The notes beneath the pieces were generated by a model that saw only the letters and a program-made list of their open reading frames with translations, had not been told where the DNA came from and did no database searches. Positions 3,884 to 31,133 of a DNA stretch of 64,000 bases are shown piece by piece; within the stretch, counting starts at the first letter, position 1, and the number at the start of each line of letters is the position of its first letter. The DNA lies in NCBI GenBank assembly GCA_026936105.1, contig JAIXKI010000002.1, positions 1-64,000 of the forward strand. Direction: 5' to 3'. The position numbers were made by a program, and so were the translations under genes. The stretch comes from Chitinophagales bacterium. Lineage in GTDB: Bacteria; Bacteroidota; Bacteroidia; Chitinophagales; Chitinophagaceae.

Positions 3884-3957
3884 AAACTTTTGATTTTTGA
3901 ATTTATAATATTTAACCCAGAATCATGAGCAGATATATAATAAATTGGATTCTATCT

Positions 3958-5475: not shown

Positions 5476-5513
5476 ATAATTATTTTAAAATATTTTATCA
5501 AAAAACTACACAA

Positions 5514-8500
5514 TTAAAAAGAAACATTTATTCCGAATGTGAACATTCTGCTTCTTGGATAAGCACCATAATCCATACCAGGAGTTATGATTGAATTTTT
5601 AAAATTCACTTCAGGATCATATCCGGTATATCGGGTAAAGGTCAACAGGTTTTGAGCACTGGCATATACCCGAAGTCTGTTAAATGGGAGTCTTTTCCCT
5701 TTTATCGTAGAAATATTGTATCCTAATTGAACATTTTTTAACCGGAAATAGGAACCATCTTCAATTGAATAAGAAGTAGTGTAATCATATTCGGTATCAT
5801 AACTGCTGTTCCAAAGTTGTGCATTTATCTGTGGATTAAGTTGTGTCCAATGATTATACATGGAGACAGGACCACCCTGGAGGCCCCCAGGACGTTCATA
5901 AATGTTTTTAATGGTATTAAATATTTTATTCCCATAAGAAAAAGTGAATAAAAAACTAAGCTCAAATTGTCCGTAACGGAATTCATTATTAAATCCTCCA
6001 AAAAAGTCAGGATTCCCATTACCAAGAATTGCCCTGTCATCACTGTCAACTACACCATCCCCATTTACATCTTTATACTTCCTGGCTCCTGATCTGATAG
6101 GAGTCATATCGTGAGGCAGAACTTCGGTATAAAGTTCCTCATCTGTGTTAATATAACCGTCAAATACCCATCCATAAAAATTACCTAAAGGTTCGCCCAC
6201 TTTCACAATCCAACCACCATATCTTTTGTACCCCTGTATTTGAAACGATTCCTGGTTATCACTTAACGCCAGCACTTTTCCTCTATTAAAAGCAATATTG
6301 AAGTTGCTGTTCCATGTAAATTTTTTTGACTTAACATTAATGGTATTAAGGTTTATCTCCATGCCTTTTACCTGAATGTCACCCACATTTCTATAAACTT
6401 CAGAATACCCTGAATAATAGGAAATAGGTGCGGCCAGTAAAAGATCTTTTGATTTCTTTTTATAAGCATCTACTGTCAATAGAAGCCTATCATCAAATAA
6501 TCCAAGATCAAGACCTATATTAGTCTGAATATTCGTTTCCCATTTCAAATCACCTACCCCAAAACTTATTGGTGCTAGCCCAAGAGGATAACTTGTTTGA
6601 TTCATCACAGGAGGTCTTGAAAAGTTTGAATATCGGGTCAGAGAAGAATAAGAGGGAACACTTTCATTTCCAACCATCCCCCAGCTTACCCTTAGCTTCA
6701 AAGAAGATATTTGCTTTATATTATTCATAAAGTTTTCTTCCTTGATTTTCCAGGCTGCCTGAGTTGAGGGAAAATAACCCCATCGGTGATTGGGAAATTT
6801 AGAGCTGCCATCTGCTCTCATTATCACTGTAAGTAAGTATTTACTTAAATAGTTATATCTTAATATGCCTAAATAGCTGGCTAATGAATATTTCGATTTT
6901 CCCGAGCTTGGATAGTCTGCAATTGTCCCGAAACCTAAATTATCATATCCTAAAACATCAATGGGGAACTGGTGTGATCCAAAGCCGTAGCTTTTGCTGG
7001 TACCGCTTTCAAGAGTAAAACCTGTCGTAAAATCAACGGTATGCTTATCAGCAAAAGTTTTATTATAGTTTAAAGTATTCTCACTCAGCCAACTAAAATC
7101 TTTTCCTATACTAATAGAACCTTCGCCATTTTGTAATTGGCCGTTTCCTGAAGTGGAAGGATAATAAGTACTATATTGGTCAGAAATACTATGAACACCA
7201 CCCGCTAAACGTAAAACAAGATTCTTCGTCAAGTTAAAATTAAATGCAGTATTAATACTTCCATTAAATACTTCATAAAATCGCTTATCCACGGTCAATG
7301 CTTCTACCGGGTCTGTTCCATAAATACCACCACGACGTAAATTTCGATCTAGGAATTCCGATAATCTTGTTACTCCATAACCTAAAAATGGTGAAGCTTT
7401 GATTACCGAATACATTACCTGGCTGCTTCCGCTCAAATTTGGTCCGGTTTTATCTCTTTGAGTTAAATAAATAACTGTTTCATTTGATACTATTTTATTT
7501 AACCTTGAATTAATATTCAAATCAACGGTATAGCGATGAAAATCGTTATTTATAGCTACGCCTTGTTGTTTGTCATAACCAAAGGATGCAACTACCTTTA
7601 CACTTTCAGTGCCCCCGGAAAGAGAAAGGTTATGAGATTGATTCACCCCGGTTCTGAAAGTAGATTTATACCAATCAACAGAGCTGGAATCTTTAAAAGT
7701 CCGCCAATTCTTAAAAATACTCGTATCACCGAAGGTGCCATCCATCTGCAACTGATGTTGCAATTCTGCATACTGCGCTACATTCAACAACTTAATAGGT
7801 CTTGCAATCTTAGAAGTACTAACATAGGCATTATATTCAATTGTAAACCTTCCTGCCTTTCCGGATTTTGTTGTAATAATGATAACTCCATTAGCGCCTC
7901 TAGATCCATATGCAGCAGCTGAAGCATCTTTCAGAATATCAATCGTTTCAATATCGTTAGGATTAATGTTGAAATTGGAGCCTCCTAATTGTGGAAATCC
8001 ATTAATAACATAAAGTGGTTCATTACTTGCAGATATTGAAGATCCTGCCCTTATGGTGATACTAACGGGCGCTCCCGGATCGCCTTCTGACGATGTTACC
8101 AAAACACCAGCAGCCCGTCCTTGTAAAGCTGTATTTAATGATAACTCAGTGCTTTTAACAACATCGCTGGCTTTAACACTGGAAATAGCGCTCGTAAGAT
8201 TTTTCCTTTGAACCTTACCATATCCCACAATCACTACCTCATCATTGATTTTACCTGAGAGGTTCAAAATTAGCTTTCCCAGATTCCGTTTATTTACTAC
8301 AACCTCAATTGATGAATATCCTACAAAAGAAATAAGCAGAGTGGCATTCAATTCTGTATTAATTGTAAAATATCCATTAACATCTGTTTTTGTTCCGATG
8401 TCAGTTCCCTTTACAATAATTGAAGCTCCGGAGAGTGGCTCCCCCAAGTAATTTACCACCTGTCCTTTTATTTCAATAAATGAACTAGTTTCACGGGTCG

Positions 8501-8942
8501 TTATAGTTTCCGTAGTTACTTTTATTTCATTTTCATTATCAGTACTATTGCCAGCAAAAAAGTCAGAAGTTAGATTCTGTTCTGTAAAATATTCGTCAGG
8601 TACTGACAGAAATATTTTATCCTCCAGGTCTATTGAAAATATTCCATCACTTTTCAGAAAAGATTGACTGCAGAAATTAGCATACCATATTTGCTTACCA
8701 GGCTCTGAAAATAAATTTCTAAAAGAGGCATGTTTCTCAGTAAGATTGACATTTGATGAACGCTCTTCAGCGTTTACTTTGAAATTAGCTCCGAATATCA
8801 GAATCGTACAGAGCTGAAATGTCAACAAGATTTTTTTAAACGATCTACTTGTTGCCGAATAGGAAATTAAACCTGTTAAACTTTGCTTTTTGTTTTTTTG
8901 TTCCTGCAAAAAAGCAGTAGAACAATTTGCATAAATTTGCAT
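5514..8942 (-). CDS. susC: SusC/RagA-family TonB-linked outer-membrane transporter
   Basis: The protein has 1142 residues. Order: an N-terminal extension and signal segment (about 1-58), a degenerate STN-like domain (about 68-130), a carboxypeptidase-regulatory beta-sandwich (IKGQVVNYLGEPLSGASIIVKG, about 152-228), a DEVVIVGYGKVQRKN linker, the plug (LQGRAAGVLV...YVINGFP...IDILKDASAAAYGSRGANGVIIITTK), then a 22-strand-type barrel ending in F at the last residue. It would import glycan fragments using TonB energy, with SusD as its lid. The start codon sits in a tandem 10-bp repeat (ATTTGCATAA twice). The leader reaches about 350 bp back to a LacI-type operator at 9293. Confidence 0.93.
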   Translation of the reverse strand: MQIYANCSTAFLQEQKNKKQSLTGLISYSATSRSFKKILLTFQLCTILIFGANFKVNAEERSSNVNLTEKHASFRNLFSEPGKQIWYANFCSQSFLKSDGIFSIDLEDKIFLSVPDEYFTEQNLTSDFFAGNSTDNENEIKVTTETITTRETSSFIEIKGQVVNYLGEPLSGASIIVKGTDIGTKTDVNGYFTINTELNATLLISFVGYSSIEVVVNKRNLGKLILNLSGKINDEVVIVGYGKVQRKNLTSAISSVKASDVVKSTELSLNTALQGRAAGVLVTSSEGDPGAPVSITIRAGSSISASNEPLYVINGFPQLGGSNFNINPNDIETIDILKDASAAAYGSRGANGVIIITTKSGKAGRFTIEYNAYVSTSKIARPIKLLNVAQYAELQHQLQMDGTFGDTSIFKNWRTFKDSSSVDWYKSTFRTGVNQSHNLSLSGGTESVKVVASFGYDKQQGVAINNDFHRYTVDLNINSRLNKIVSNETVIYLTQRDKTGPNLSGSSQVMYSVIKASPFLGYGVTRLSEFLDRNLRRGGIYGTDPVEALTVDKRFYEVFNGSINTAFNFNLTKNLVLRLAGGVHSISDQYSTYYPSTSGNGQLQNGEGSISIGKDFSWLSENTLNYNKTFADKHTVDFTTGFTLESGTSKSYGFGSHQFPIDVLGYDNLGFGTIADYPSSGKSKYSLASYLGILRYNYLSKYLLTVIMRADGSSKFPNHRWGYFPSTQAAWKIKEENFMNNIKQISSLKLRVSWGMVGNESVPSYSSLTRYSNFSRPPVMNQTSYPLGLAPISFGVGDLKWETNIQTNIGLDLGLFDDRLLLTVDAYKKKSKDLLLAAPISYYSGYSEVYRNVGDIQVKGMEINLNTINVKSKKFTWNSNFNIAFNRGKVLALSDNQESFQIQGYKRYGGWIVKVGEPLGNFYGWVFDGYINTDEELYTEVLPHDMTPIRSGARKYKDVNGDGVVDSDDRAILGNGNPDFFGGFNNEFRYGQFELSFLFTFSYGNKIFNTIKNIYERPGGLQGGPVSMYNHWTQLNPQINAQLWNSSYDTEYDYTTSYSIEDGSYFRLKNVQLGYNISTIKGKRLPFNRLRVYASAQNLLTFTRYTGYDPEVNFKNSIITPGMDYGAYPRSRMFTFGINVSF

Positions 8943-9680: not shown

Positions 9681-11303
9681 ATGAAATCCCAAATACGTAA
9701 GTACAGGAGAATTTTATACTTCTTTTTATTGTCAGTTATACTTGTATCCGTTAATTTTTTTATTCATCTAAATATAGGAAGTAAACCAGTTATTAAGTCT
9801 CAAAAGCCTGATTTGTTTTTGCCTCCTTCAAACCAACTTCCGCTAAAAACACATTTCATCTATAAATCTGCAACTGAACTGGCTGACCTGATTAAGAGCA
9901 GAAAAGCGACTTCCCTAGAAATTGTGAAAGAATTCATTTCATACATCAGGAATAATAATTATAAATACAATGCGATAGTATGGTTAAGAGACAATGAAGC
10001 GCTTGCTGAAGCAAAAAAAGCTGATGAAGCTGTCGCCAAAGGTGGAGATTTACCACCGCTTCTTGGTGTACCAATAACAGTAAAAGAAGAGTTCTGGTTG
10101 AAAGGTTCTCCGGTTACATTAAATTTAAAAATGAATGAAAAATTTATTGCACCGGACGATGGCCCCATTGTAAAACAATTAAAAAAGGCAGGAGCAATTA
10201 TCATCGGAAAAACCAACCTCCCCACCCTGCTAATGGATTACCAGGTTCAAGGTGAAGTTTACCCAGTAGGCAGTAATCCTTATGATACTACAAAAACACC
10301 AGGCGGAAGTACGGGAGGCGGAGCGTCAGCACTTGCAGCAGGGTTTACAAGTCTTGAATTCGGAAGTGATTTGGGTGGAAGTATTCGTGTGCCTGCCTCC
10401 TTTTGTGGATTATATGGCTTAAAAACAACCTTTGGCACTATAAACGTAACAGAAGGCGATGGAACAGAGGCCGTATCAACACATAAAAGATTTGCGTTAA
10501 ATACTGCTGGCCCTTTGGCAAGGACTCCCGAAGATCTTGAAGTAGCATGGAATGTTTTAAAAGAGACCAGACCCGACAATAGATTCCAAGAACCTGTTTT
10601 TTGGAAACAGCCATCCGGTAGAAATATTTCCGAATATAAAATTGCCTGGATAGATGATTGGAAAACCTCATCCGGAACGATCAAAGTTGGAAGAGATGTA
10701 AAAGTAAAAATGAGTCGCCTTATTGATTCAGTTAAAAAATATGGTGCAGGCATTAAAAAATATGCTCCGGACACCTATGAAGAAATGATGAATTCTTACC
10801 TTACCTGTCTTGCCTTAATTGCAGGTGAAGGCAAATCACCGGAAATCAGACAAATGATAAATAAAGACATGCATATTTGGGATGATGACTCCGGTATTTT
10901 AAATCCCTTCTACACTACAATGACGAACCAGAATGATTCATCCTGGATACAATGGCAGCAACAAAACAATAAGCTAAAAAGAAAGTGGGATTCATTTTTT
11001 TCCCACTTTGATTTTTTTATCTGCCCGATTACCTATGGGGCAGCATTTAATAAATGCCCCAAAGGATCTGCAATCAAAATAAAAGGTGTAACAGTATCTT
11101 ATTTCAGATATTTTCCATACGCCACTATACTTAATCCAATTGAATGTCCTGCTATAACTATCCCTTTAGGTTTGAACGATGAAGGATTACCCATCGCAAT
11201 ACAGGTTATAGGTCCTAAATTTTCTGAACCTGAGTTATTGCATTTCGCAAAATTATTAAAGCCGTTGGTACCAGGCTTCTTAAAACCTGACCTTTTACAT
11301 TAA
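9681..11303 (+). CDS. Membrane-anchored amidase-signature hydrolase
   Basis: From ATG 9681 the protein is 540 residues: a basic N-terminus, one membrane segment (about residues 8-30), then the amidase-signature fold. The Ser-cisSer-Lys triad is intact: Lys in VPITVKEEF, the cis-Ser in PGGSTGGGAS, the nucleophile in GSDLGGSIRVPA. Such enzymes cut carboxylic amides; with amino sugars nearby an N-acyl or peptidyl amide is a reasonable guess, not a demonstrated one. An in-frame ATG exists at 9597, but that start would place a repressor operator and -7 box inside the coding sequence, so 9681 is preferred. It is divergent from susC. Confidence 0.85.
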   Translation: MKSQIRKYRRILYFFLLSVILVSVNFFIHLNIGSKPVIKSQKPDLFLPPSNQLPLKTHFIYKSATELADLIKSRKATSLEIVKEFISYIRNNNYKYNAIVWLRDNEALAEAKKADEAVAKGGDLPPLLGVPITVKEEFWLKGSPVTLNLKMNEKFIAPDDGPIVKQLKKAGAIIIGKTNLPTLLMDYQVQGEVYPVGSNPYDTTKTPGGSTGGGASALAAGFTSLEFGSDLGGSIRVPASFCGLYGLKTTFGTINVTEGDGTEAVSTHKRFALNTAGPLARTPEDLEVAWNVLKETRPDNRFQEPVFWKQPSGRNISEYKIAWIDDWKTSSGTIKVGRDVKVKMSRLIDSVKKYGAGIKKYAPDTYEEMMNSYLTCLALIAGEGKSPEIRQMINKDMHIWDDDSGILNPFYTTMTNQNDSSWIQWQQQNNKLKRKWDSFFSHFDFFICPITYGAAFNKCPKGSAIKIKGVTVSYFRYFPYATILNPIECPAITIPLGLNDEGLPIAIQVIGPKFSEPELLHFAKLLKPLVPGFLKPDLLH

Positions 11304-11430
11304 TTGTAAAATTAAATTTATTATCTACAGGAAGAAGATCAGGTAATTAGCTTGAGAATATCTTACTTCGTATTTAAAATATGGTACGATCCTGAATTTT
11401 TTAAAAACCCAATTGGATTCAATACAGAAT

Positions 11431-11449
11431 TGAGCTTTTAAGAAGCTCA
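11431..11449. terminator. Weak hairpin between convergent genes
   Basis: A 7-bp stem (TGAGCTT/AAGCTCA) with a 5-nt loop lies between the convergent amidase and Nramp-like genes. A second AT-rich dyad (TTTATAAA...TTTATAAA, about 11461-11480) is close by. Neither has a strong T-run, so function as a bidirectional terminator is tentative. Confidence 0.3.
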
Positions 11450-11488
11450 GTGAAAACAGTTTTATAAAGCTTTTTATAAATGATACCG

Positions 11489-12721
11489 CTAAAAGAATAG
11501 TTCTCTAGCATTGAAAATTGCCAGAAATATTATCAGAGCCAGCCCTACAGTTCCCATAATTTTCTGAATCAGGTTATTTTTTAGTGGTCCCATTACTTTT
11601 TCATCATTGGCAATTGTGAAAAGAGCAATGCCAACAATTGGTACTATAAAAATGGTAACACTTTGGGCTAATACAATCAGGTTCAGCGGAAGTTTTCCAA
11701 AAATAATTGCAATACTTGCACCAATAATCATAACCAGTGCAATCAATCCTTTAATTACTTTATTATTCAGTTGGTATCCGTAACCCAATGAATCACCCAG
11801 CAAAGTACCCCCAATTGCAGCATTTCCAACAAGTGAAGAAAACGAAGCTCCAAAAAGTCCGGCAAGAAATAATACTGTTGATAATTCTCCAAATAATGGT
11901 TCTAAAGCTTTAGCCATATCCAATGCACTGTTTACCGGCAGGTTTCTTGAATGCAGAACACTACCGGCACAGATCATAACAATAATTACCAACAAGCCAA
12001 GAATTACAATACCTGTAACACTCTCATTTGGCTTAACGGTTGCTCCCTGGCTGTGTTTTCTTCTCTCCTGCATAAGATAGCATTGATAAAAGGCTGCAAT
12101 GAGAGAAAAACAGGAAGCAATGAATGCAATAACTAGCCCTGCTGATCCCGCAGGAATAGAAGGTTTCAAGCCATCAGTAATAGTAGAAAGATCGGGATTA
12201 ATTTTAATTAATGTTAGTAAAAATGCAATCAGCATTAAAGCAACAAGGACAAACATCAATTTTTCAAGAATTTTGTATAGGTCTTTGAAAAAGAGAAGAC
12301 CCAGTCCCAGTATATTAAACAGAACGATCCAAAATTTCACATTGATATTTGTAGGTTCTGACAATGCAATCCCCACGCCTATTGAATTTCCGGACTGAAA
12401 AGAGGTAGCTACAAAAAATATTCCTATTCCCACAATTATGGAAACCGGCTTACCCCACTTGTGTCGAATTGTTTGTAATAATGATTTACTGGTTGCCAAA
12501 CCAATTCTGCCAGCCATAGAAGTAAAGAGTATCAGAAAATAAATGGCCACTACTACAAGCCATATCATAGCATATCCGTAGTTAGCCCCTAATTTTGACG
12601 TAATAGTCATTTTACTTGGGCCAAAAATTATAGCTGCTGTGATAATACCTGGCCCTAACGACTTTATCCATCGTTTCAGACCTGGATATTTCTCTATTCT
12701 TTTTTTAATCCTCTGATACAT
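11489..12721 (-). CDS. Nramp-family transporter lacking the metal-binding residues
   Basis: The 410-residue protein has about 11 membrane segments. The first, SLGPGIITAAIIFGPSKMT, matches Nramp TM1, but the metal motif DPGN is GPSK (residues 34-37). In TM6 the motif MPH is replaced by AFY (about 210-212). Both key metal-coordinating positions (Asp and Asn of TM1) and the TM6 Met are therefore gone, and a Lys has appeared. Nramp proteins normally move Mn2+ or Fe2+ with protons; this one probably carries something else. It is the last gene of the large minus-strand operon, next to a sugar isomerase, so an organic substrate is possible. Confidence 0.8.
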   Translation of the reverse strand: MYQRIKKRIEKYPGLKRWIKSLGPGIITAAIIFGPSKMTITSKLGANYGYAMIWLVVVAIYFLILFTSMAGRIGLATSKSLLQTIRHKWGKPVSIIVGIGIFFVATSFQSGNSIGVGIALSEPTNINVKFWIVLFNILGLGLLFFKDLYKILEKLMFVLVALMLIAFLLTLIKINPDLSTITDGLKPSIPAGSAGLVIAFIASCFSLIAAFYQCYLMQERRKHSQGATVKPNESVTGIVILGLLVIIVMICAGSVLHSRNLPVNSALDMAKALEPLFGELSTVLFLAGLFGASFSSLVGNAAIGGTLLGDSLGYGYQLNNKVIKGLIALVMIIGASIAIIFGKLPLNLIVLAQSVTIFIVPIVGIALFTIANDEKVMGPLKNNLIQKIMGTVGLALIIFLAIFNARELFF

Positions 12722-12866
12722 TTTTTGTTTTCCTAATTTTTGAGTGACTGATTAAATACCGGCTTTTTGTTTTTATAAAAATTCTTTTACGTTCATTCAG
12801 TAAGAATATTGCAGGTGATCATAAATAACAGATATTTGTATTGTATCCTTACCTTCAGTACATCTG

Positions 12867-13676
12867 TCAGAAGTGCTTTTTTATAACTGATACATATTCC
12901 GGAAATGCTATCTCGGGTTCTTCAATATCCGGATACCAGAATTTTTCCCATTCAAATCCATAATATCCGCTATACCCATCCTTATAGAGAAGATCAATAG
13001 CTTCAAATATGGGGCATTCGCCCCGGCCTAATAATACAGGTATCAGTTTACCATTAACAAATTTTCCGTCCTTTAGATGGGTATGCCTGATATACTGTTT
13101 CAGCTCAGGGTAAACTTTAGCCGGTGATACCCTGGTAACAGACCACATATTGCAAACATCCCACAACAAACCTGTGTGGGGATTAAAAGCAGGTTCCATG
13201 ATTTTCCTGATTACTGACGTTTCTAAAGCATCTCCGTGTGTTTCTATCAAGACAACGACATTGCTTCCTTTTGCATAATTACCCAATTGCAATAATCTTT
13301 CACTTATCAGGTTAATAACAATGTCTCTGCTTTGATCTTCGGGTAGTTTGTTAGGGAATACACGAACATACGGGCAATTAAGTTCGTGTGCAAGATCAAT
13401 AAATCTCTTTGCTTCATCCAGGTCCTTTTGCCAGATGCCAATATCCTGCTGGTGAAGCGATACAGAAGATCCTAACCCCTGAATTTTTACTTGCCTGTCC
13501 TCGGCCTTTCTCCTGCTTAATTGAATACTTTCATTATTGCTGAACTCCGGGCACTTTGGCAAATCCATCTGTCCAAGAATTCCCCTTATTTCAATTGCTG
13601 CGAATCCATTGTCGTGAGCAAAATCAAGAATTTTTGTAAATGACCATTTAGGGCAACCCAGGGTGGAGAAAGACAA
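12867..13676 (-). CDS. TIM-barrel sugar isomerase/epimerase, signal peptide cut off
   Basis: This 269-residue xylose-isomerase-like TIM barrel starts at LSFSTLGCPKWSF and shows the usual metal-site segments: VLIETHGD, LLWDVCNMW, YIRHTHLKD, and GYYGFEWEKFWYP near the end. These enzymes isomerise or epimerise sugars and keto-sugars. The only start available in the open frame is TTG 13676, with no Shine-Dalgarno. The same frame continues upstream as a Tat lipoprotein signal back to ATG 13781, but a TGA at 13764-13766 replaces the first Arg of the twin-arginine motif. The product is therefore either an unexported cytoplasmic enzyme or dead. It lies 146 bp before the Nramp-like gene. Confidence 0.75.
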   Translation of the reverse strand: MSFSTLGCPKWSFTKILDFAHDNGFAAIEIRGILGQMDLPKCPEFSNNESIQLSRRKAEDRQVKIQGLGSSVSLHQQDIGIWQKDLDEAKRFIDLAHELNCPYVRVFPNKLPEDQSRDIVINLISERLLQLGNYAKGSNVVVLIETHGDALETSVIRKIMEPAFNPHTGLLWDVCNMWSVTRVSPAKVYPELKQYIRHTHLKDGKFVNGKLIPVLLGRGECPIFEAIDLLYKDGYSGYYGFEWEKFWYPDIEEPEIAFPEYVSVIKKHF

Positions 13677-13781
13677 AAGCGGTTTCTTATTCTGACAACC
13701 TAAGGTGGTTCCATTTATAGCAATCGCTCCTAATAATCCCGAACTGGTTTTAATAAAATCTCTTCACGAAAATGACTTCAT
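13677..13781 (-). pseudogene. Tat lipoprotein signal interrupted by a TGA codon
   Basis: Read in frame with the sugar isomerase from ATG 13781, the translation is MKSFS-stop-RDFIKTSSGLLGAIA, followed by a hydrophobic stretch and a lipobox TLGC, then NKKPL joining the enzyme. SRRDFIK would be a standard Tat motif. The stop (TGA) is one transition from CGA Arg. Everything after the stop is still in frame and intact, so the mutation looks recent. Confidence 0.7.
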
Positions 13782-13891
13782 AAACAATCTTTTAACTGAT
13801 TAAAAGTAAATGTATTTGAAACTTTTCAATAATTTATACTTTTACACAAACCGGCATGAAATTGCTCCTATGCCCGGTTAACCAATTCAAT

Positions 13892-15268
13892 TTACTTTTT
13901 ATTAATTCTCATAAAATGTTTTACAGGTTTATTCAGCTTATATATTGATTGAAACAATGCAGCATGCTTTTGCTCCATATCTTTTTCGTTCACCTTGTCA
14001 GACAGGTATTCGGCAAATACTTTTTTGAAAAAATTGTAGTTTTCAGAAGTTTTATTTTCATTAAGTATGCTGTCAAATTTTGCTTTTACCAAATCCATGT
14101 CTGCAACCTTCACAGTTGCTCCTTCAAAATGCTGATATTCCACATATTTCAATAACCGCAATTGCCTCTCAGTTTTCCAGTATTCATAAAATTGATCAAG
14201 TACTTTCTGCGATTGTTTTGATTGAGGAGTAACCGTATTCAGCGATAGGTTTATTCCTTTACTTAAATCTTTGTTGGAATAGGTTCCAATAAAAGAAGAA
14301 TCGATAAGCAAATTATAATTCCCTCTTTTTAATCCTTTTATTTGCAGTACTTCCTTGTTTAACTCTGATGTAAATGGGTGAAGGGAATCAGGGTTTAATC
14401 CATCAGGTGAGGGATAGGGTAATGACCGGGAAAGATATTCAAAAGAAACATCGTTAGTTCCTGCCTGCAGGTTACTAATGATACAGTTCTCAGCCAATAA
14501 CGTACTGTTCTTTTTAACATCGACTTTTACATAAGACACCTTTTTCTCTATATCCTGATTATTTAAAAAAGTATGTGCCATAACAAAAAATCCCAATTTG
14601 CTTACGTGCACTCTGTCGTTCCCGATTATCGATTTGGTTGGATCCTTCTTCTGAATAATCCTGTTATCCTCATTCATTACAGTCCAGCAATCTACCAGTG
14701 GCAGCTGGTATTTTCCTGACAATTGCTTCAGGAACTCAACACATTTTTTTAAAGCATCATTTACCCCGTAAGCATTTTCCGAGGGTAATTGCCCCGTCTG
14801 ATCATAAATGGTAGGCGTTTGCAGGATAACTTTAACCTTTGCCTGCATCAATAACCGAACAATACTATCCGCATTGCGGCACCAGCTTTCTATTCTCTCT
14901 TGCTTCTTTTCCTGTATGCCGGCTTCGTTCTGCCTGTCTTTCATATAAAGTGATGGCCTAAGGTCGTTTTCTTCAAGCATCAATACGGCCCAGGTTGGTT
15001 TAACAACTAAAATATCAGAATGAATCCGTGCTAAAATATTATCCGTCCAATCACCCGATATACCGCAGTTAAGAAATGTAATATTTCTTTCCGGATACCT
15101 GGTAGCATAAAACAGATTTATATAATGATAGTTTCCCCCATTCATAGCAATACTGCTTCCAATAAAACAAATTCTGTCGTTGTCCTGAAATGATGGTATT
15201 TGACCATACACATCTGTTGCAAGCATTAAAGAAATAGAAAGAATAAGGGCAAAATATTTCTTAAACAT
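13892..15268 (-). CDS. Secreted SGNH/GDSL-type hydrolase
   Basis: The 458-residue protein has a signal peptide (about 1-22) and then an SGNH-hydrolase domain. Block I is FIGSSI (Ser nucleophile, GSS rather than GDS), block II Gly lies in NCGISGD, block III Asn is in EENDLRP, and block V is NDRVHVSKLG with the catalytic Asp-x-x-His. The C-terminal 200 residues are a beta-rich and then helical region. SGNH enzymes cleave esters, often acetyl or acyl groups on glycans. It is part of the large minus-strand operon; the 110-bp gap before the isomerase remnant contains no operator. Substrate unknown. Confidence 0.8.
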   Translation of the reverse strand: MFKKYFALILSISLMLATDVYGQIPSFQDNDRICFIGSSIAMNGGNYHYINLFYATRYPERNITFLNCGISGDWTDNILARIHSDILVVKPTWAVLMLEENDLRPSLYMKDRQNEAGIQEKKQERIESWCRNADSIVRLLMQAKVKVILQTPTIYDQTGQLPSENAYGVNDALKKCVEFLKQLSGKYQLPLVDCWTVMNEDNRIIQKKDPTKSIIGNDRVHVSKLGFFVMAHTFLNNQDIEKKVSYVKVDVKKNSTLLAENCIISNLQAGTNDVSFEYLSRSLPYPSPDGLNPDSLHPFTSELNKEVLQIKGLKRGNYNLLIDSSFIGTYSNKDLSKGINLSLNTVTPQSKQSQKVLDQFYEYWKTERQLRLLKYVEYQHFEGATVKVADMDLVKAKFDSILNENKTSENYNFFKKVFAEYLSDKVNEKDMEQKHAALFQSIYKLNKPVKHFMRINKK

Positions 15269-15390
15269 GAAGTAATGTTTTTAATGTATAATTTATTCTC
15301 TTAAATGAATCATATTTTTCATTTCATATATCAGACAGCTTTAGTATTGAAGCAACTCCATCGAACCTTACAAGGAACAGGATCACAATC

Positions 15391-16449
15391 CTATCCGGTA
15401 TCCAATAAAACTTTTTCGCCTGACTTTGCACTCCGGTAAATGGCTGTAACAATTTCAACTGATTTTTTCCCTTCCACAGCATCTACCAACGGATCAGAGT
15501 TCTCTTCAACTGCATTGATGAAATCTATCATTTGCATTTTGTGGCCATAATGACTGATTGATGCAGGATCTGCAACCCCACCGGAAGAATTATTCGATAT
15601 ACATTGCTTGTTCCGGAATACCTCATCGTGTGGTAATTCATTCTGAAACTGCCATTTTAAAACACTGTTCTCCTCGAGTATAGCGGAACCTGAAGTACCA
15701 ATAATTTCAAGACGTTTAAAAAATCCGGGGAACGCAGCGGTAGTACATTCTATAACACCCAATGCTCCGTTTGCAAATGTCATAATTGCTGTAACGGTAT
15801 CCTCCACCTGGATTTCCTTATGGTACCTGTTCGCCGAAATTGCCTGTACCGATTTTATTGGCCCCATAACCCATTGTAACAAATCAACTGAATGTATCCC
15901 CTGGTTCATTAAGGCACCTCCTCCATCATATTGCCAGGTCCCTCTCCATTCACCAGATTGATAATATTCTTTTGTACGATGCCATTTTACATAAACGCTC
16001 CCCAACACGAGTTCTCCAAATCTTTGTTCTTCTACGGATCGCTTCAATTGCCTGTTTACTTCATAAAACCTGGAAGGGAATATGACAGCTACCTTTACAT
16101 TCGCCGCTTTCGCCGCTTCAATAATCAGATCACAGCGCCCGGTGGTAATTTCCAATGGTTTTTCTATCATGCAGTGTTTGCCGGCAGCAATGCATTTGAG
16201 CGCTATCTCAAGATGTGTTCCCGACGGTGTACATACAGATACAATATCAATATCAGGGTTTTCTAACATATCGTCCAACGTAGGGTAAGCTTTACCTCCA
16301 TATATCTTTGAAAAAAGTTCAGCTTTGCCTATGTTATGATTATATACACCAATAATACCGGCACAACCGATCTCTGAAATCGCTTTTGCATGAAAATGGG
16401 AAATAACACCCGTACCGACGATACCAAATCCAAAAGATTTCATTTTCAC
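15391..16449 (-). CDS. Gfo/Idh/MocA-family NAD(P)-dependent oxidoreductase
   Basis: This 352-residue cytoplasmic enzyme starts with the Rossmann motif FGIVGTGVISHFHAKAI. It carries the family EKP motif (MIEKPLEITT, about residue 95) and the active-site segment NQGIHSVDLLQWVMGP. Gfo/Idh enzymes oxidise or reduce hydroxyls of sugars and inositols. The neighbouring SSS symporter and SGNH hydrolase fit import and oxidation of a carbohydrate. The frame is complete and no signal peptide is present, in contrast to two other Gfo/Idh members of the window. Confidence 0.88.
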   Translation of the reverse strand: MKMKSFGFGIVGTGVISHFHAKAISEIGCAGIIGVYNHNIGKAELFSKIYGGKAYPTLDDMLENPDIDIVSVCTPSGTHLEIALKCIAAGKHCMIEKPLEITTGRCDLIIEAAKAANVKVAVIFPSRFYEVNRQLKRSVEEQRFGELVLGSVYVKWHRTKEYYQSGEWRGTWQYDGGGALMNQGIHSVDLLQWVMGPIKSVQAISANRYHKEIQVEDTVTAIMTFANGALGVIECTTAAFPGFFKRLEIIGTSGSAILEENSVLKWQFQNELPHDEVFRNKQCISNNSSGGVADPASISHYGHKMQMIDFINAVEENSDPLVDAVEGKKSVEIVTAIYRSAKSGEKVLLDTG

Positions 16450-16520
16450 AACTTTGAGTTATTGAAAATTTATCACAGAAAAAAAATTCATTTCAAACAA
16501 TCGAATACATCAGCTATCTC

Positions 16521-18011
16521 CTATTTAGATTCTACTGCAATTTTGCTGCTGCTTCGGAGAGCCACTAACATTTTTTCCACATGTTCAGGTGTACTCGTTT
16601 TATTAAACAACCCAAAGCAAATAAAAATAACAGCAGATACTATTGTAGGTAATCCAATTTCAAGTGCCAGGCTGTTTAGTTCAATGTTCTTTGTAATAAC
16701 AAAAGTCAACACGCCTCCAACTATTGAACCGATAGCCGCTTTTGGCCCACAACTTTTAAATGCCGGTAAAAGCCCAAACAATAAGGGCATTGAAGTAGGC
16801 CCAAGCAATGCTCCAAACCAGGAAATAATTAATCCCAGGACCCCGCCAAAATGGTTGTAGTTAAGTGCTACAACCATTGTTGCTAAAGTGAATAAGCATG
16901 TAACAATCCTGGCAGTACGAAGCGGAGACTTTACATTTTGAAATTTAGGAGATATAACAGGCAAAATATCCCTCGTGATCACAGCGGCAATCGTATTCAC
17001 ATCTGAAGATGTCATGCCCATAGTCGCTGCAAATAATGAAGCAATCACCAGGCCTATCATCCCCTGTGGCAATATTTTCAACATAAGCCACCCATATGAT
17101 TCATCAGGCTTTTCCAGTCCCGGTAAAATAAGTGGCGCTGCCCACATTGGAAAAAATAATATTAAAGGCCATATTAAATATAGTATCCCTGATAAACGGG
17201 CAGCTCTGGATGCTTCCTTTTCATTAGGAGAAGAAATATATCTTGTTGCCAGGCTCCAGCTTCCACCATTATAACTCAAAAAATATAGGAAGAAAATAAG
17301 AACTACAAAAGGAAGAGTATATGGATCATTGAACCATTGACTATGACTGGGCGGCAATTGCTTCCAGATACCCATGATTGAATCTGCACCACCCAGATGA
17401 TTCACAACAAGTACAAACATCACAATGCCTCCTAAAATCTGGACAATAAACTGAATAAAGTCTGTTATTATGACTCCCCATAAACCGCCAAAGGTGACAT
17501 AAATTAATGTAACCACACCCGAAACAAGGATACCGGTCATCATAGAAATTCCTGCTACAACATGGAGGAGTATTCCAATAGCAGCCCACTTGGCTCCAAC
17601 ATCGAAAATCTTTAATAATACTCCCGACCAGGCAATAACTTGTTGTGTCAACAGGTTATACCGTATTTTAAGATATTCAAGAGGAGATTGCACCTGGAAA
17701 TTCCTTCTAAGCCGTACCCAATAAGCCGGGAAAATTCCTGCACTAACAATGATAGCGATACCAACAGGCAAAGCCCACCAGACAAATATGGTAAAACCAT
17801 GTGTATATGCAACAGCAGCATAAGCTACAAAAACTGCTCCGCTGTGGCCTGAAACATGATGAGAGATACCTGCCAGCCACCAGGGGATTTTTCCTCCGGC
17901 AACAAAATAATCTTCGGCATTTTTACTTTTGTAATAAGACATAACACCAATAACAATCATTGATAAAAAAAAGACAATGATCAGAATATAGTCTAATGAG
18001 TTTAATGTCAT
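16521..18011 (-). CDS. Sodium:solute symporter (SSS family)
   Basis: The 496-residue integral membrane protein has about 13 segments, starting SLDYILIIVFFLSMIVIGVMSY, then the SSS hallmark EDYFVAGGKIPWWLAGISHHVSGHSG. GMTSSDVNTIAAVITRDI contributes Na2-site residues. It would import a sugar, sugar acid or similar solute with Na+. It lies between ThuA-like and Gfo/Idh genes in the minus-strand operon, so it is the likely inner-membrane entry for a product of the periplasmic enzymes encoded here. The exact substrate cannot be read from the sequence. Confidence 0.9.
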   Translation of the reverse strand: MTLNSLDYILIIVFFLSMIVIGVMSYYKSKNAEDYFVAGGKIPWWLAGISHHVSGHSGAVFVAYAAVAYTHGFTIFVWWALPVGIAIIVSAGIFPAYWVRLRRNFQVQSPLEYLKIRYNLLTQQVIAWSGVLLKIFDVGAKWAAIGILLHVVAGISMMTGILVSGVVTLIYVTFGGLWGVIITDFIQFIVQILGGIVMFVLVVNHLGGADSIMGIWKQLPPSHSQWFNDPYTLPFVVLIFFLYFLSYNGGSWSLATRYISSPNEKEASRAARLSGILYLIWPLILFFPMWAAPLILPGLEKPDESYGWLMLKILPQGMIGLVIASLFAATMGMTSSDVNTIAAVITRDILPVISPKFQNVKSPLRTARIVTCLFTLATMVVALNYNHFGGVLGLIISWFGALLGPTSMPLLFGLLPAFKSCGPKAAIGSIVGGVLTFVITKNIELNSLALEIGLPTIVSAVIFICFGLFNKTSTPEHVEKMLVALRSSSKIAVESK

Positions 18012-18078
18012 CCCTTTGATTTTTACTTGTTATTTCTTTTAACTTTAATTCTTTTATTCTTATTCCACCTGATCATGA

Positions 18079-18903
18079 TTAATATGATTCTTCTAAAGCC
18101 CACCCGATACTTCCCAGAAGCAAATTGATAAAGTTTGGTGATTGGAAATCTGCCGGATGTCCCAATGATGTATAAAACACTTTGCTTAGTCCTGCCCGGC
18201 GAGTCCAGGCAACAGGTTCAGTTATAGTATCTGCCTTTCCTCTAAGTATTATAGTAATGTTGCTGTCAAGCAATGGAGCAACTTTATAAATGTTTCCTTT
18301 ACTATGCCAATATGATGATTGAAGTTTTTGCACAACAGGGTGATTCATGGCATTTACATCAAGCGATACATCCGTACCGGGATCAATCGGGCCATAACCC
18401 CTGTTTTCACAACCTAATACTGTTGCAACAAATTCCGGCCAGTCCTCAAAGCCTTCCGAAATTTTATCCCAAACAGTAAAAGCATGATTAGCTGTTCTTA
18501 TTCCTATAATCGGGCGACCGGAATTAATATAGCTTTTAATAATTTCCATTTGCTTATGCGGCAGGGCTATACGGCGTGCAAAAATGATCAATAAGTCGGC
18601 TTTTTCAACTGCATCAAAATCCGGGTAAGTATAAGCTCCGTGTGTTCCTTGCCCTAAAAGCACTGTTACCTTATATCCTAACCGTTCTTTTAATAGTCGT
18701 CCAAATTCAGGAATGGTTTTATGTGCCTCATAGTTCAAAGAATCTTCTGTTATCAGAAAAACAATATGTGCTGATTTTTTTGCTTGAGATGCTCCCATAA
18801 TTTGATTATTCTTTTCATTCCCTGTTAATGCTGTATCGAATGAAACAATTATTAAATACAGGGCTAAATACCCCATCAGTTGAATATGTTGTTTTAAATT
18901 CAT
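18079..18903 (-). CDS. Secreted ThuA-like protein
   Basis: This 274-residue protein has an N-terminal signal segment (about 8-28). The remainder resembles the class-I glutamine-amidotransferase-like fold of ThuA domains: HIVFLITEDSLNYEAHKTIPEF at the start, DLLIIFARR after the second strand, and GRPIIGIRTANHAF in place of the usual nucleophile elbow. The cysteine nucleophile of true amidotransferases is absent, as in other ThuA proteins. ThuA was linked to trehalose catabolism in rhizobia; related proteins accompany oxidative sugar pathways. Function here is not determined. Confidence 0.7.
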   Translation of the reverse strand: MNLKQHIQLMGYLALYLIIVSFDTALTGNEKNNQIMGASQAKKSAHIVFLITEDSLNYEAHKTIPEFGRLLKERLGYKVTVLLGQGTHGAYTYPDFDAVEKADLLIIFARRIALPHKQMEIIKSYINSGRPIIGIRTANHAFTVWDKISEGFEDWPEFVATVLGCENRGYGPIDPGTDVSLDVNAMNHPVVQKLQSSYWHSKGNIYKVAPLLDSNITIILRGKADTITEPVAWTRRAGLSKVFYTSLGHPADFQSPNFINLLLGSIGWALEESY

Positions 18904-18944
18904 CGTTCGTTGTCTATTTGAAACAGGATCAAAAGTCAGTCATC

Positions 18945-19958
18945 TCAATTATTTTTAAACCAGTTTTTGTCAATATACAGACTCCAAACCTCACTATTCA
19001 ATATATAATCATCACCTGCTGCCCCACCGGCTATCCATAACTTGTCCTTGAATACAAAAGCAGAATGTTCATGACGTTTGGACCAATGTATCTCTGTTTT
19101 TAATTCCTTCCAGTCAATTCCATTTTGTGAATACCACACATCATCAAAATTTTTATGTTCTCCGGACCAACCGCCTATCACCCAAATACGATCCCGATAT
19201 ACTACGGAGGAAAACCACATACGTGGAAGCCACTGTGCCGAGGATGTTACCTGTTTCCAGTTTATGCCATCTTCTGAACACCAAACATCATTGTGTGCAG
19301 TAGCATTCGGGAAACGTTGTCCGCCACCCATTATCCATATTTTATTATCAAATACGATTGCCTGAGCATGTGCCCTTTTTGACCAGGGAGCGTTCATCAA
19401 TTCTAATTTCCATTCTTTTCCATCACCGGACGACCATATATCATTAAAAAGTGTACTATCATTATTCCGATAAAAATCTGAAGTACCTCCAAGAATCCAT
19501 ATTCTATTTTTAAAAACAACAAAACCGGGAGACAGTCGGGGACTCCAGCCGGCAGATTCAGTTACCAATTCCCAATTAATTCCATCGGCAGAAGACCAAA
19601 CTTTATTGCTACACTCAGTTCCGGGGACTTTACGTCCGCCCATGATCCACATTTTATTTTTGAATGTTAGTGATACAGACAAATCACTCTGGACCCAGGG
19701 TGCTGTTTTTGTTGTATTGATCCAATTCTTTCCATCGGGTGAGTTCCATACATCCAAAATATTTGGTGTTGTTGGAGTATCCCAACCCCCTAAAATCCAT
19801 AACAGATTTTTAAAAACAAATTCACCCTGTGAATCTCGTGGTTTCCATGCGGCAGAATCGGTTTCTTTAATCCAGTTAATAATTTTTTCCTGGCAGAATG
19901 CCGTCGAACTCATTTGAAATATTATTATAGAAGAAATTATCAACAGTCTTTTTTTCAT
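18945..19958 (-). CDS. Secreted Kelch-repeat beta-propeller protein
   Basis: The 337-residue protein has a signal peptide (about 1-22) followed by about six near-identical blades. Each carries FKxxxWIxGG (for example NLLWILGGW, NKMWIMGGR, NRIWILGGT, NKIWIMGGG, DRIWVIGGW, DKLWIAGGA) and a DVWxSxDGxxW turn. Kelch propellers bind ligands or act as lyases/epimerases in some sialic acid systems, but no catalytic signature is visible. It is probably periplasmic, encoded between amidohydrolase and ThuA-like genes. A binding or mutarotase-like role is possible but unproven. Confidence 0.8.
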   Translation of the reverse strand: MKKRLLIISSIIIFQMSSTAFCQEKIINWIKETDSAAWKPRDSQGEFVFKNLLWILGGWDTPTTPNILDVWNSPDGKNWINTTKTAPWVQSDLSVSLTFKNKMWIMGGRKVPGTECSNKVWSSADGINWELVTESAGWSPRLSPGFVVFKNRIWILGGTSDFYRNNDSTLFNDIWSSGDGKEWKLELMNAPWSKRAHAQAIVFDNKIWIMGGGQRFPNATAHNDVWCSEDGINWKQVTSSAQWLPRMWFSSVVYRDRIWVIGGWSGEHKNFDDVWYSQNGIDWKELKTEIHWSKRHEHSAFVFKDKLWIAGGAAGDDYILNSEVWSLYIDKNWFKNN

Positions 19959-19999
19959 TTTACTTAACGCTTTTGTTCCTTCTAATATCCGTTTATCAA

Positions 20000-20827
20000 T
20001 TATAGATTAAAGAATCTTTTTGCATTGCCAAATTTTAAAAGATTTTTTGCTGCTTCATCTGCTTCTTCAGCTCTTAATGACTCAATTCGTAAAAGTCCGG
20101 TTACATTATCCAAAATTGGGGAATGTGACCCATAAGCAAATTTTTCTTTACCATATAATGCAATCATTTTACCCAAATCTGTCATTGCCCTCCCGGATGT
20201 GTCCATTAAAAAATTGGTTTTCTTTAAAAGCTGTAGCCCGCTTTCATCAAACCGGATATTAGCTATAGCACTTTCATTTTCTCCATCGGGTATTTGCAAG
20301 CTGTTAACTGCATTTAATATTAAATATTTAGCATCGGGCACTTCTTTTATGATAGGCAGTACATCTTTTAAAGACCATTCCGTTTCTATATCCATCCATG
20401 AGCTGACCCTGCTATCTACAATTCTTAGAGATAGAGCCACTGGCAAATTGAGATCTCTTACACGCTTTACCAGTTCAATGCAATTTGAGTTTTTTAGGTC
20501 ATAACGATGATATAATGGATGAAGCCGCACTCCTTTCATTCCCATTTTCTCAATGCATATTTTCAGATCATCTTTCCAACCTGAATATATTGGATTAATG
20601 ACGGCAAAAGGGATAATCCTATTTCCATAGCTACTATTCGATTTCAGGTCTTCGAATAATTCTTCATTGGCTGATTGTGGGTTTTTATAAAAAACTCCAT
20701 TCAAATTACTCATCACGGAAATATCAATTCCTAATGCTTGCATTAATTGAAACCTCTTTTCACAGCTATTATTTTTAAGCTGCCTGAAAGGCCAATGTCC
20801 TGTATAAGCATTTACATCAATCAACAT
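20000..20827 (-). CDS. Amidohydrolase-like TIM barrel without canonical metal ligands
   Basis: The 275-residue protein aligns by pattern with amidohydrolase-2 family TIM barrels (GMKGVRLHPLYHRYDL; LLKFGNAKRFFNL at the end). The first metal motif HxH is replaced by NAYTGHW, and the usual final Asp segment reads YGSHSPI. A canonical metal centre is therefore unlikely, though one paralogous subfamily naturally has DVN-x-GHWPFR at the N-terminus. It has no signal peptide. It overlaps the preceding Tat-signal amidohydrolase by 11 bp, so the two are translationally coupled and may act as a pair. Confidence 0.72.
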   Translation of the reverse strand: MLIDVNAYTGHWPFRQLKNNSCEKRFQLMQALGIDISVMSNLNGVFYKNPQSANEELFEDLKSNSSYGNRIIPFAVINPIYSGWKDDLKICIEKMGMKGVRLHPLYHRYDLKNSNCIELVKRVRDLNLPVALSLRIVDSRVSSWMDIETEWSLKDVLPIIKEVPDAKYLILNAVNSLQIPDGENESAIANIRFDESGLQLLKKTNFLMDTSGRAMTDLGKMIALYGKEKFAYGSHSPILDNVTGLLRIESLRAEEADEAAKNLLKFGNAKRFFNL

Positions 20828-21755
20828 TATTTCCTGATTTTTTTAAAATCGCATTATAATTGTCAAAAAATATTTTTTTTCTTTGTGATTCTGAAAGATT
20901 ATCAGACAGCACATGTCCAACTCCCTGGTAAAAACTATTATCACAACCAAATAGCAATCGGTCTTCGCCAATATATTTCAATGCAAAATCAATCATGCCC
21001 GCTTCATTATTACTGCCCGATACATCTACGAATATATTTGGTGAATGAGCCAAAGACTTACATGCATACTCCCAATCAATACCACCACCGATATGTGCAA
21101 ATTGAAACATAGCCTCAGGATATCTCGAAGCTATTTCTACAAAATCTTCCGGCAATGAAATATTGGGAGGTTCATCCATATTTAATAACACCCGGGATTT
21201 TCCAATAGCAGAATGCATTAGTATGATCATCTTCAGATCAATGAACTTTTCTATGATTGGATAATATAATGGGTCGTTAATTTTTACCTGGTTATAAAGT
21301 TCTCCTGCGCCAACCATACCTGCATCTACACAACGTTTTATCTCTTCCAGTGATTCCTTTTTATAAGATGGGTTCAATACCATCGTGCCGATAAAACGAT
21401 CAGGGTGATCTTTCATACATTTTATGACTAAATCATTGCATTGCCTGAACTCTTCCGGTGTACCCTTGCTAAAAGCCTCCATATTTCGTGAAATCACCAG
21501 TTTTTCAATTCCTAATCTTTCAGCAAAGTCAAATTGTGTTGCAGGGCTGTCCGCTGAAAAATAAACATGGGCATGTGTATCAATCTTACGATACTTCATT
21601 ACTTCCTCCATCAAACCCATTTTCTTTTTATCAGGAGAAAATTTTTCTGAGTGCTCTTTTGATATAGAGTGAACAAGGTCAGACCCCAATAATAACCCGG
21701 TGGCTGAAGCAACTGTATTGCTAACAAAACTGCGTCTGTCCATTCTTTTATACAT
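20817..21755 (-). CDS. Tat-exported amidohydrolase-2 family enzyme
   Basis: The 312-residue protein opens with a Tat signal: MDRRSFVSNT followed by a hydrophobic stretch (about 5-30). The metal-dependent hydrolase motifs are present: DTHAH, MHSAIG, FAHIGGG and FGCDNS. Members hydrolyse lactones, amides or decarboxylate aromatic and sugar acids; a sugar lactonase role is possible because an L-fucose-type oxidative pathway lies in the same regulon, but no specific match is visible. It is followed by, and overlaps, the metal-ligand-poor paralog. Confidence 0.85.
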   Translation of the reverse strand: MYKRMDRRSFVSNTVASATGLLLGSDLVHSISKEHSEKFSPDKKKMGLMEEVMKYRKIDTHAHVYFSADSPATQFDFAERLGIEKLVISRNMEAFSKGTPEEFRQCNDLVIKCMKDHPDRFIGTMVLNPSYKKESLEEIKRCVDAGMVGAGELYNQVKINDPLYYPIIEKFIDLKMIILMHSAIGKSRVLLNMDEPPNISLPEDFVEIASRYPEAMFQFAHIGGGIDWEYACKSLAHSPNIFVDVSGSNNEAGMIDFALKYIGEDRLLFGCDNSFYQGVGHVLSDNLSESQRKKIFFDNYNAILKKSGNNVD

Positions 21756-21784
21756 CGAGAATTCTTTTTAAAAAAACAGAATCG

Positions 21785-23248
21785 CTATTTATACTCAGCT
21801 AATTTTACGCCAGCCAGGCGTGCCACCCGTTGCGCTTCATTTAAAATCACCGTTTCAATATTAGAAGCCCAGGTGCTGGGTAAGCCAAACAGCATTTGCG
21901 TAAATAATCCTCCTTCATAAGCAATAGATTCCGCATTGGTAGGATTATAAAAAGCATATCCAGAAGATTTATCATTTGATTCTCTAATAATTTCCGTAGT
22001 AGGTATATAAGCCATAATGTCATTTGAATATCCCATCACAAACGTATTAGCTCCAAATAATTTTTTTATTTCAATAGCATAATATGTTACCACTTCGCCA
22101 CCTAAAGTCACGACGGGCTGATTTCCTATCTTCCAGACTTGTACCGGGTATGGATATGATTTTATTACCGGTAATCCACTATTTATCTGCTTCAGAAGAT
22201 TTACTGCAGAACGGCTTATATAGGCTGCAGTCGTATCTTCTGTCATCAATTCCAACTCTTTTTTTGAGGGTGGGGCATTTAATGGCAACTCTATTTCTGA
22301 ATAAGAAAACCCCAGGTTAGGCGTTTGCTTTTCCATTGAAGTGCTCAACACATTTTCTACTGCATAAGCTAATTCTTTACCATATTGCTTTGCAAGCGGT
22401 ATGGTCCTTCTTGGTAAGGGATTCTGGTCTGCCCCTGCACCCTGAAAAAATAATGCAGTAACTCCAGGATACATTTTTTCCAATTCCCACTGGGCAAACC
22501 CTGCATAGTCACCAGACCATTGATATCCCCTCAAAACAGTATTGTGGCATGCATAACCAAATGCAATGGCAATAAGAGAATCCGCTTTATTTACAATCTT
22601 TAATACCGGAACTGCATAATCATTCGGTCCTTCGAGCTCGGATTGTAACAATAAATATTTTTCATTGTTATTGCGCCGGTTAACCTGAAACCTTGCAAAT
22701 CCATTACCCGAAAACACTTCTGCCGGCTGCAATGAATTTATTGCTGCTCCAACGAGAGCAACAATTTGCCTGGAAAGGTTTTCAGTGTACGATTTTATTT
22801 TTTGTTTTTCTGCACCATTTATGTCATACGCATTGCTAAGGGAATTGGTAAGAACAGGTCCCGAATGTGTGTGAGAGCAATTCAAAATCACCTGAGCTTT
22901 GTCCAGTTTATATTTTAGTTTTAATTGCCCGCGAATCCAATCAGACATTTCCTTTGGAATCATACACAAGTCGAGTGTAACCAATACACACCGCTTTCCC
23001 CCAGCATCTTCAAGAGCAAGCGCCTTTGCCCACAGATCCTGCAATGTACCTTCAGCAGGATGATCACGGAATACATAGCCTGCCAGCCACATTGGTTCTT
23101 TCGGTGTGATAGTAACACGTGCAACACCAGCCTTCCAACTCCCGGCGTCATTTTTGTCCGCAGCATTTGCCGGCAATAGCACTATCAGGAAACAAATACT
23201 CCATAAATAAAAAGAGAATCTTTTCATTGTATATCTTTTAGAATTCAT
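21785..23248 (-). CDS. Secreted neutral-ceramidase-like hydrolase (copy 1)
   Basis: The protein has 487 residues with a signal peptide (about 8-30). The core begins WKAGVARVTITPKEPMWLAGY and includes the zinc-type motif NCSHTHSGP (about 125-135), FGYACHNTVLRG, and QGAGADQNPLPR where bacterial ceramidases have the GDVSPN nucleophile loop. The C-terminal Ig-like domain of true neutral ceramidases is absent; those are about 650 residues or longer. It is therefore a family relative and its amide substrate is unknown. Copy 2 lies at 23421-24809, 172 bp away, with similar sequence throughout, so the two are tandem duplicates that have diverged. Confidence 0.8.
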   Translation of the reverse strand: MNSKRYTMKRFSFYLWSICFLIVLLPANAADKNDAGSWKAGVARVTITPKEPMWLAGYVFRDHPAEGTLQDLWAKALALEDAGGKRCVLVTLDLCMIPKEMSDWIRGQLKLKYKLDKAQVILNCSHTHSGPVLTNSLSNAYDINGAEKQKIKSYTENLSRQIVALVGAAINSLQPAEVFSGNGFARFQVNRRNNNEKYLLLQSELEGPNDYAVPVLKIVNKADSLIAIAFGYACHNTVLRGYQWSGDYAGFAQWELEKMYPGVTALFFQGAGADQNPLPRRTIPLAKQYGKELAYAVENVLSTSMEKQTPNLGFSYSEIELPLNAPPSKKELELMTEDTTAAYISRSAVNLLKQINSGLPVIKSYPYPVQVWKIGNQPVVTLGGEVVTYYAIEIKKLFGANTFVMGYSNDIMAYIPTTEIIRESNDKSSGYAFYNPTNAESIAYEGGLFTQMLFGLPSTWASNIETVILNEAQRVARLAGVKLAEYK

Positions 23249-23420
23249 TGAAAATATCCTTTCCCAAAAAACATCACCAGTTTATTCTGATTTAGTAGCT
23301 CAAATCTTGCCCGTACTTGAAACAAATGCATTTTTCAGAAAGCCGCTGATGTGCTGAGAAATATTATAGTACATTTTCATTCTATTGGCTTCAACCTATA
23401 TAAAAATGATCGCCAGCAAA

Positions 23421-26188: not shown

Positions 26189-26553
26189 TTCTTAAATATT
26201 TAGAATTTTAAAATTCCGAATAATCACCCGAATATACATTTTTTTGGGTACGTACACGAAAAATTTATTTTACACTCCTGCTCAGCGTCACAAAGTTTCC
26301 GAAACAAACCTGGGCCTATTGAATCCCGTATCAAATAAATTTTTCACTTACCTCATTCAATTTAGTGACGATGTGGATAAGTACCTCTCCAAAATGCTGA
26401 ATTATAAGACTATCCTTCCGTCATGCAACCCCGATGGTGGTCTCAGAAAGAGACGTCCTTTCATTCTCCCTAAAAAACCAATTTGTTCTTGCCATTAGCA
26501 TACGTCAAGATATATGTAAGGTGTAAGCCCGGATATATTTTGAAAAAGCAATC
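26189..26553. other. Control region upstream of the DegT operon
   Basis: This 365-bp stretch holds operator 26245-26258, a 14-bp AT-rich palindrome GAATTTTAAAATTC (26203-26216) in the leader, and otherwise no recognisable gene. A plus-strand frame of about 84 codons begins inside the operator and has no recognisable features; I reject it. No clear terminator for the kinase gene was seen. Confidence 0.5.
26245..26258 (-). promoter_or_regulatory. LacI-type operator before the 15-kb DegT-to-Nramp operon
   Basis: On the plus strand the site is TGGGTACGTACACG; on the minus strand it is CGTGTACGTACCCA, 57 bp upstream of the DegT start. With its flanks it is an 18-base exact match (inverted) of the site at 9608. 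It is the only operator before the run of genes from 26188 down to 11489, so these probably form one transcript. Confidence 0.72.
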
Positions 26554-29045: not shown

Positions 29046-29155
29046 CGTCTTTATTAATAATTATGAATAAATAAATAATTATTTCTTCTTCTTAGTAACG
29101 ATACTCTATATGTATTTTCAAGCACTTCCTAAAAAAGTTCAGCAATACTATATTT

Positions 29156-31093: not shown

Positions 31094-31133
31094 TGTTTAT
31101 AAATTTAATTTACATGATATGTACAACTTAACA

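Follow-up and report, generated by a model that had tools for sequence, protein, structure and literature searches.

The 64,000-nucleotide stretch of contig JAIXKI010000002.1 analyzed here (the window) carries what is likely a recent nonsense mutation in the twin-arginine (Tat)-type signal of a xylose-isomerase-like TIM-barrel protein, an accessory and normally exported product of a UTBCD1-like member of the Bacteroidota. It is probably a young nonsense allele that would abolish export and most expression, and it looks like a loss mutation of the ordinary kind, not a new mechanism. Observed directly are the stop codon, its absence from the aligned relatives, the open frame beyond it, an intact tatC gene and the failure to find a second copy. 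Loss of both product and export ranks as the most likely reading and an assembly error as less likely, with relocation of the enzyme or readthrough of the stop least likely.

Architecture of the interrupted gene

The genome of the window is designated G000, and that of the closest relative found for the locus G002. On the minus strand, the gene opens at ATG 13781-13779, runs for five codons (MKSFS) and meets TGA at 13766-13764. The residues directly after this TGA, RDFIKTSSGLLGAIAINGTTLGCQNKKPLL, lead into a 269-codon frame that stays open until the stop codon ending at 12867, the gene's own terminal TGA. The first-pass annotation had placed a nonsense codon exactly at the first Arg of the Tat motif and had described the remainder of the gene as intact; both points are borne out by MKSFS-TGA-RDFIKTSSG as read from ATG 13781 and by the stop-free 269-codon frame at 12867-13676. 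The features of the locus are as follows.

13677..13781, minus strand: remnant of an interrupted twin-arginine-type signal peptide (ancestral codons 1-35), intact in G002; aligned homologues carry twin-Arg-type leaders.
13764..13766, minus strand: TGA nonsense codon at the site of the first Arg of the pair; Arg in 71/71 homologues, AGA in G002.
13761..13763, minus strand: AGA, second Arg of the pair, kept; Arg in G002 and, in the 70 other homologues, Arg in 54, Lys in 15 and Ser in 1.
13695..13697, minus strand: Cys of a weak lipobox, TTLGC; TTFGC in G002.
12867..13676, minus strand: xylose-isomerase-like TIM barrel (PF01261), intact frame from TTG; dN/dS 0.13 against G002, model mean pLDDT 91.3.
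13674..13676, minus strand: TTG (Leu36), first in-frame ATG/GTG/TTG past the TGA; not supported as an evolved start.
13892..15268, minus strand: GDSL-like hydrolase gene, upstream, intact frame.
11489..12721, minus strand: Nramp-like transporter gene, downstream, intact frame.

An intact lipobox had also been claimed for the leader. The Cys is present, and the box itself is weak: judged against the general lipobox pattern, TTLGC fits a loose form only, and just one of the 71 homologues has a Cys in the same alignment column (L030 and L034 have one close to that position).

The gene lies in a one-strand cluster (11489-30586) that also encodes a sodium-solute symporter, Gfo/Idh/MocA-type dehydrogenases, ThuA-like, Kelch and amidohydrolase-like proteins, two neutral-ceramidase-like proteins, an aminotransferase, an FGGY kinase and a 2-hydroxyacid dehydrogenase. 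Near the start codon (13751-13811, minus strand), fold prediction gives a change at the stop site, with -9.1 kcal/mol in the window and -7.2 in G002; neither value is exceptional against shuffled sequences, and the ATG is paired in both.

A PF01261 barrel protein

The downstream protein scores 84.2 bits against PF01261 (AP_endonuc_2), for which the cut-off is 31.1, and matches no NCBIfam model at E <= 0.001. A structure model built from 24 aligned sequences and begun past the stop reached a mean pLDDT of 91.3; its first 24 residues fall below 50, and strand 1 spans residues 29-33. The predicted fold matches solved superfamily members such as 3tva and 8z1i, and the window copy retains the invariant Glu/His/Asp columns of the barrel, which we take to have a metal-binding role. 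By gathering score, predicted fold and conserved core residues, the window protein is thus assigned to the PF01261 barrels, with a putative sugar isomerase/epimerase activity. A protein search of G000 at E <= 0.001 returned the gene itself as its one match, and redundancy through a paralogue was rejected on this ground.

Conservation of the arginine pair

The collection includes four genomes of the genus, two of which, G000 and G002, have the gene; one of the two genomes without it is 82% complete. G002 appears to be Sphingobacteriales bacterium UTBCD1 (contig MWTC01000021.1), which the cited part of PMC5460018 describes as a metagenome-assembled genome from anammox granules. At the locus, the window and G002 share 97% DNA identity, and the codons in question read TCG TGA AGA in the window and TCA AGA AGA (Ser-Arg-Arg, open) in G002. 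In the wider family, homologues at E <= 1e-30 were found in 70 of 394 genomes, the window's own included. They occupy 73 places, one of which is the window's; 70 of the 72 others, together with L041, make up the alignment of 71 homologues, the remaining two being fragments that lack the N-terminal part. The distant matches L005-L008 and L040, which is the same record as L002, were left out of the counts.

The residue at the stop position is Arg in every aligned homologue, encoded by CGC (28), AGA (13), CGT (12), AGG (7), CGA (6) or CGG (5), and a stop is present in the window alone. The second position of the pair is Arg or Lys in 70 of the 71, and the Phe two places on from the pair is invariant. 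The leader motif R-[RK]-x-F-[LIV] is found in 70/71 homologues; a pattern search for the motif missed three of the 72 rows, namely the window, L085 (which does have RR) and L090 (R-S). L090 (G139:C183), which reads MMQAISRSTFLQQS, is the sole homologue with an altered pair, Ser replacing the second Arg/Lys. The first-pass annotation had named a stop shared by relatives as the observation that would count against its reading; what the relatives carry is Arg throughout, with AGA in G002. Because the residue is Arg in 71/71 homologues and the G002 gene is intact, the stop is, as far as the alignment reaches, derived and seen in the window's genome only, and it is not a conserved recoding site.

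The proposal that the stop lies one transition from CGA is possible, but the alignment does not show it: G002 has AGA, and the Ser codon before it also differs, at its third base. In the G002 gene there are 150 single-base routes to a stop codon, two of them within the Arg pair, so that a stop would fall in the pair by chance about once in 75 cases, a figure judged post hoc; no special cause need be invoked.

Other in-frame stops and the reliability of the assembly

A comparison of 217 G002 genes with a 444 kb part of the window's contig flagged 11 for stops: the isomerase-like gene, a 151-residue gene, one split match, c24_31666 (with its stop within a non-matching upstream stretch) and seven genes with stops in the first 39 or last few residues. 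One of these seven was looked at, and the group is read as overlong mechanical ORF calls. The window comparison gave three further apparent stops, which on inspection were put down to mechanically called ORFs that extend too far upstream. In the reverse comparison, 8 of 219 G000 genes were flagged, seven with stops among residues 1-31 or the final 7 (two of these inspected) and G0_415699 with stops at 19 and 76.

The 151-residue gene (G000:C9:410807-411259, L155; minus strand), 397 kb away, contains a second recent in-frame TGA where G002 has TGG (Trp24), with five base differences overall. G066 matches this protein over its whole length at 59% identity and without a stop. In the same gene, the stop codon TAA of G002 is CAA in G000. 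Given this second TGA, a nonsense event is not unique in G000. A recent nonsense change in about one gene in a hundred is unremarkable, and that both stops are TGA is partly expected, because AGA, CGA and TGG each lie one step from it.

These data also bear on whether the organism in fact has a sense codon at the stop site, the TGA being an assembly or consensus error or the product of a strain mixture. The assembly is a draft of 37 contigs, G002 and all other aligned homologues have Arg here, the site differs from G002 in two adjacent bases, and the second TGA likewise interrupts an otherwise near-identical gene. Against this, broken frames are few, with 11 of 217 genes flagged and two genuine-looking internal stops, and of the two base differences at the site one is silent. 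We regard an error of this kind as unlikely, though it is the foremost of the competing explanations.

Decoding of UGA

Reassignment of UGA was rejected, as TGA ends 70 of the 219 compared G000 frames. A recoded UGA or an alternative code would be expected to show UGA conserved in relatives or unused as a stop, and the homologues carry Arg at this position in 71/71 cases. Programmed or tolerated readthrough would yield some full-length protein with another residue, such as Trp, in place of the first Arg. Several features are compatible with it: the stop is a UGA with A as the next base, the preceding codons are one silent base from those of G002, the leader beyond is still in frame, and elsewhere in G000 a further UGA is found at a Trp codon. 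Yet UGA terminates the isomerase-like gene itself as well as those 70 frames, the in-frame stop occurs in none of the aligned homologues, and no Rfam family reached threshold over 11000-16000. A signal with the invariant first Arg substituted would, moreover, probably export poorly. Readthrough is accordingly rated as improbable. More doubtful still is the idea that the lineage decodes some UGA, through a suppressor tRNA or weak termination, so that an in-frame UGA would throttle export rather than abolish it and the Trp-codon UGA 397 kb away would be another instance; we mention this as a speculation to which we attach very little weight.

Tat export in the genome

Export by the Tat system appears to be retained in G000. 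TatC scores above its curated cut-off with no internal stops and is intact in all four genus genomes. A Tat-signal model gave four G000 matches, of which the three that were read keep the motif (MNYKRRDFLK, MDRRELLK and APRRDFLK); the fourth is a 37-residue frame at a contig end. Two Tat-type proteins of G002 have no counterpart with a Tat-model match in G000: one is unmatched, and the other has partial matches of 42-46% inside larger frames. Both are read as proteins that lack a G000 orthologue rather than as cases of a broken signal. The possibility that G000 has lost Tat in general was rejected on the intact TatC and the motif kept in 3/3 of the Tat-model matches read. In the isomerase-like gene, a functional Tat signal would need a start codon followed in the same open frame by R-R or R-K; TGA takes the place of the first Arg.

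Age of the stop and state of the gene

The dS of the gene between the window and G002 is 0.075, whereas other window gene pairs reach 0.49; the full range is 0.017 to 0.49, two partial or weak matches having been left out. The gene belongs to a block (11489-18903) with dS of 0.02-0.08. Together with 23421-35552, this block makes up the low-dS part of the window (about 0.02-0.11, with one short gene at 0.26), and the blocks 3161-8942, 18945-23248 and 35580-37487 have dS of 0.28-0.49. Near-identical and strongly diverged gene blocks thus make up a mosaic between the window and G002, which suggests recombination between the two lineages. Over the wider 444 kb, aligned pieces of the window's contig and G002 average 86% identity. 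The two copies of the gene separated recently, probably by way of recombination. As a dS of 0.075 means that the copies parted recently, the stop is young; by this comparison it is dated to after, or near, the separation of the window and G002 copies.

The open part of the gene has a dN/dS of 0.13 against G002 (6 non-synonymous and 12 synonymous changes), with one further non-synonymous change in the last codon, outside the dN/dS alignment. This is close to the pooled value of about 0.14 for 48 window ORFs, and the stop may be too young for a change in selection to register. Of 58 near-invariant columns past codon 35, four have a residue in the window other than the majority one, and at all four the G002 codons are identical to those of the window. 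The leader differs from G002 at 7/105 bases and the remainder at 19/807; signal peptides usually evolve faster. No decay is apparent in the TIM barrel beyond the stop, for which the time may have been too short. As expected of a pseudogene, the gene carries a frame-breaking change that is absent from its relatives. As a counterpoint, a gene still in use would likewise give a dN/dS of 0.13 over the downstream frame.

TTG 13676 as a possible cytoplasmic start

Another suggestion was that the enzyme had moved to the cytoplasm and is now made from TTG 13676, or else from another internal start. In the 71 homologues, codon 36 is CTT (22), TTA (18), TTG (13), CTG (12, including G002), CTA (3), CTC (2) or ATG (1). 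Since 13 of the 71 homologues have TTG at this position, TTG there is no innovation; it is, on the alignment, an ordinary Leu codon of the family, and nothing supports an evolved start. The codon has C at both -3 and -6. In Flavobacterium johnsoniae, a member of the Bacteroidetes, A at these positions stimulates initiation, according to the cited part of PMC6847099. The context of the TTG is nevertheless weak evidence, because ATG 13781, with T at both positions, also lacks those A's. The TTG lies one residue inside predicted strand 1, and a product started there would lose that residue in the model.

Some observations lean toward relocation. Except for that one residue the barrel is complete from TTG, and loss of signal peptides among orthologues has precedent, mostly through N-terminal removal in the data cited from PMC5952966. 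In L079 (G104:C1), ATG stands at the TTG's codon behind an intact R-K signal and is a possible internal start. These are set against a TTG that is synonymous with other Leu codons of the family, a start other than AUG with C at -3 and -6, and an upstream signal that is present in all 71 aligned homologues. Relocation is hence quite unlikely, and TTG as a selected start was found unsupported on the same grounds; low expression from TTG is possible.

Consequences and significance

Under the preferred reading, a recent nonsense mutation, ribosomes starting at ATG 13781 would halt after five codons and, without a good restart site, little or no enzyme would be made and none exported. The gene would then be either a segregating null allele or a newly formed pseudogene, in both cases too young for decay. 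Termination at UGA is leaky in other bacteria, which makes some full-length product possible. The earlier proposal of lost export or the start of gene decay fits a position at which all 71 relatives keep Arg and a frame that is otherwise intact.

The locus captures an export signal that has been broken at an invariant position while no other decay can yet be seen. Should reads bear out the stop and strains prove to differ, G000 and G002 would provide a natural comparison between an exported enzyme and one that is either absent or not exported; for the present, the stop counts among the background nonsense changes that bacterial genomes are expected to carry. Mechanical ORF calling from TTG 13676 would misrepresent the gene as an intact cytoplasmic enzyme. 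A search of open-licence papers found nothing in print on this locus, nor, judged by titles and the opening lines of abstracts, on twin-arginine premature-stop pseudogenes matching the case.

Comparison with known systems

Young bacterial pseudogenes and nonsense alleles, as generally known, resemble the window gene in having a single in-frame stop, an otherwise intact frame and an intact close relative. It differs from them in being so far without decay beyond the stop, and its loss of function is putative. Among the Tat-exported xylose-isomerase-like TIM-barrel proteins (PF01261) of the same bacterial family, the domain, the leader motif and the predicted fold are alike, whereas the stop at the first Arg belongs to the window copy only. 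The signal-peptide losses described for Enterobacterales in the cited part of PMC5952966 are comparable in that orthologues differ in exportability. N-terminal removal predominates among those losses (145), substitutions being fewer (25), and Tat groups were removed from that study; in the window, by contrast, the leader DNA remains and is cut off by a stop.
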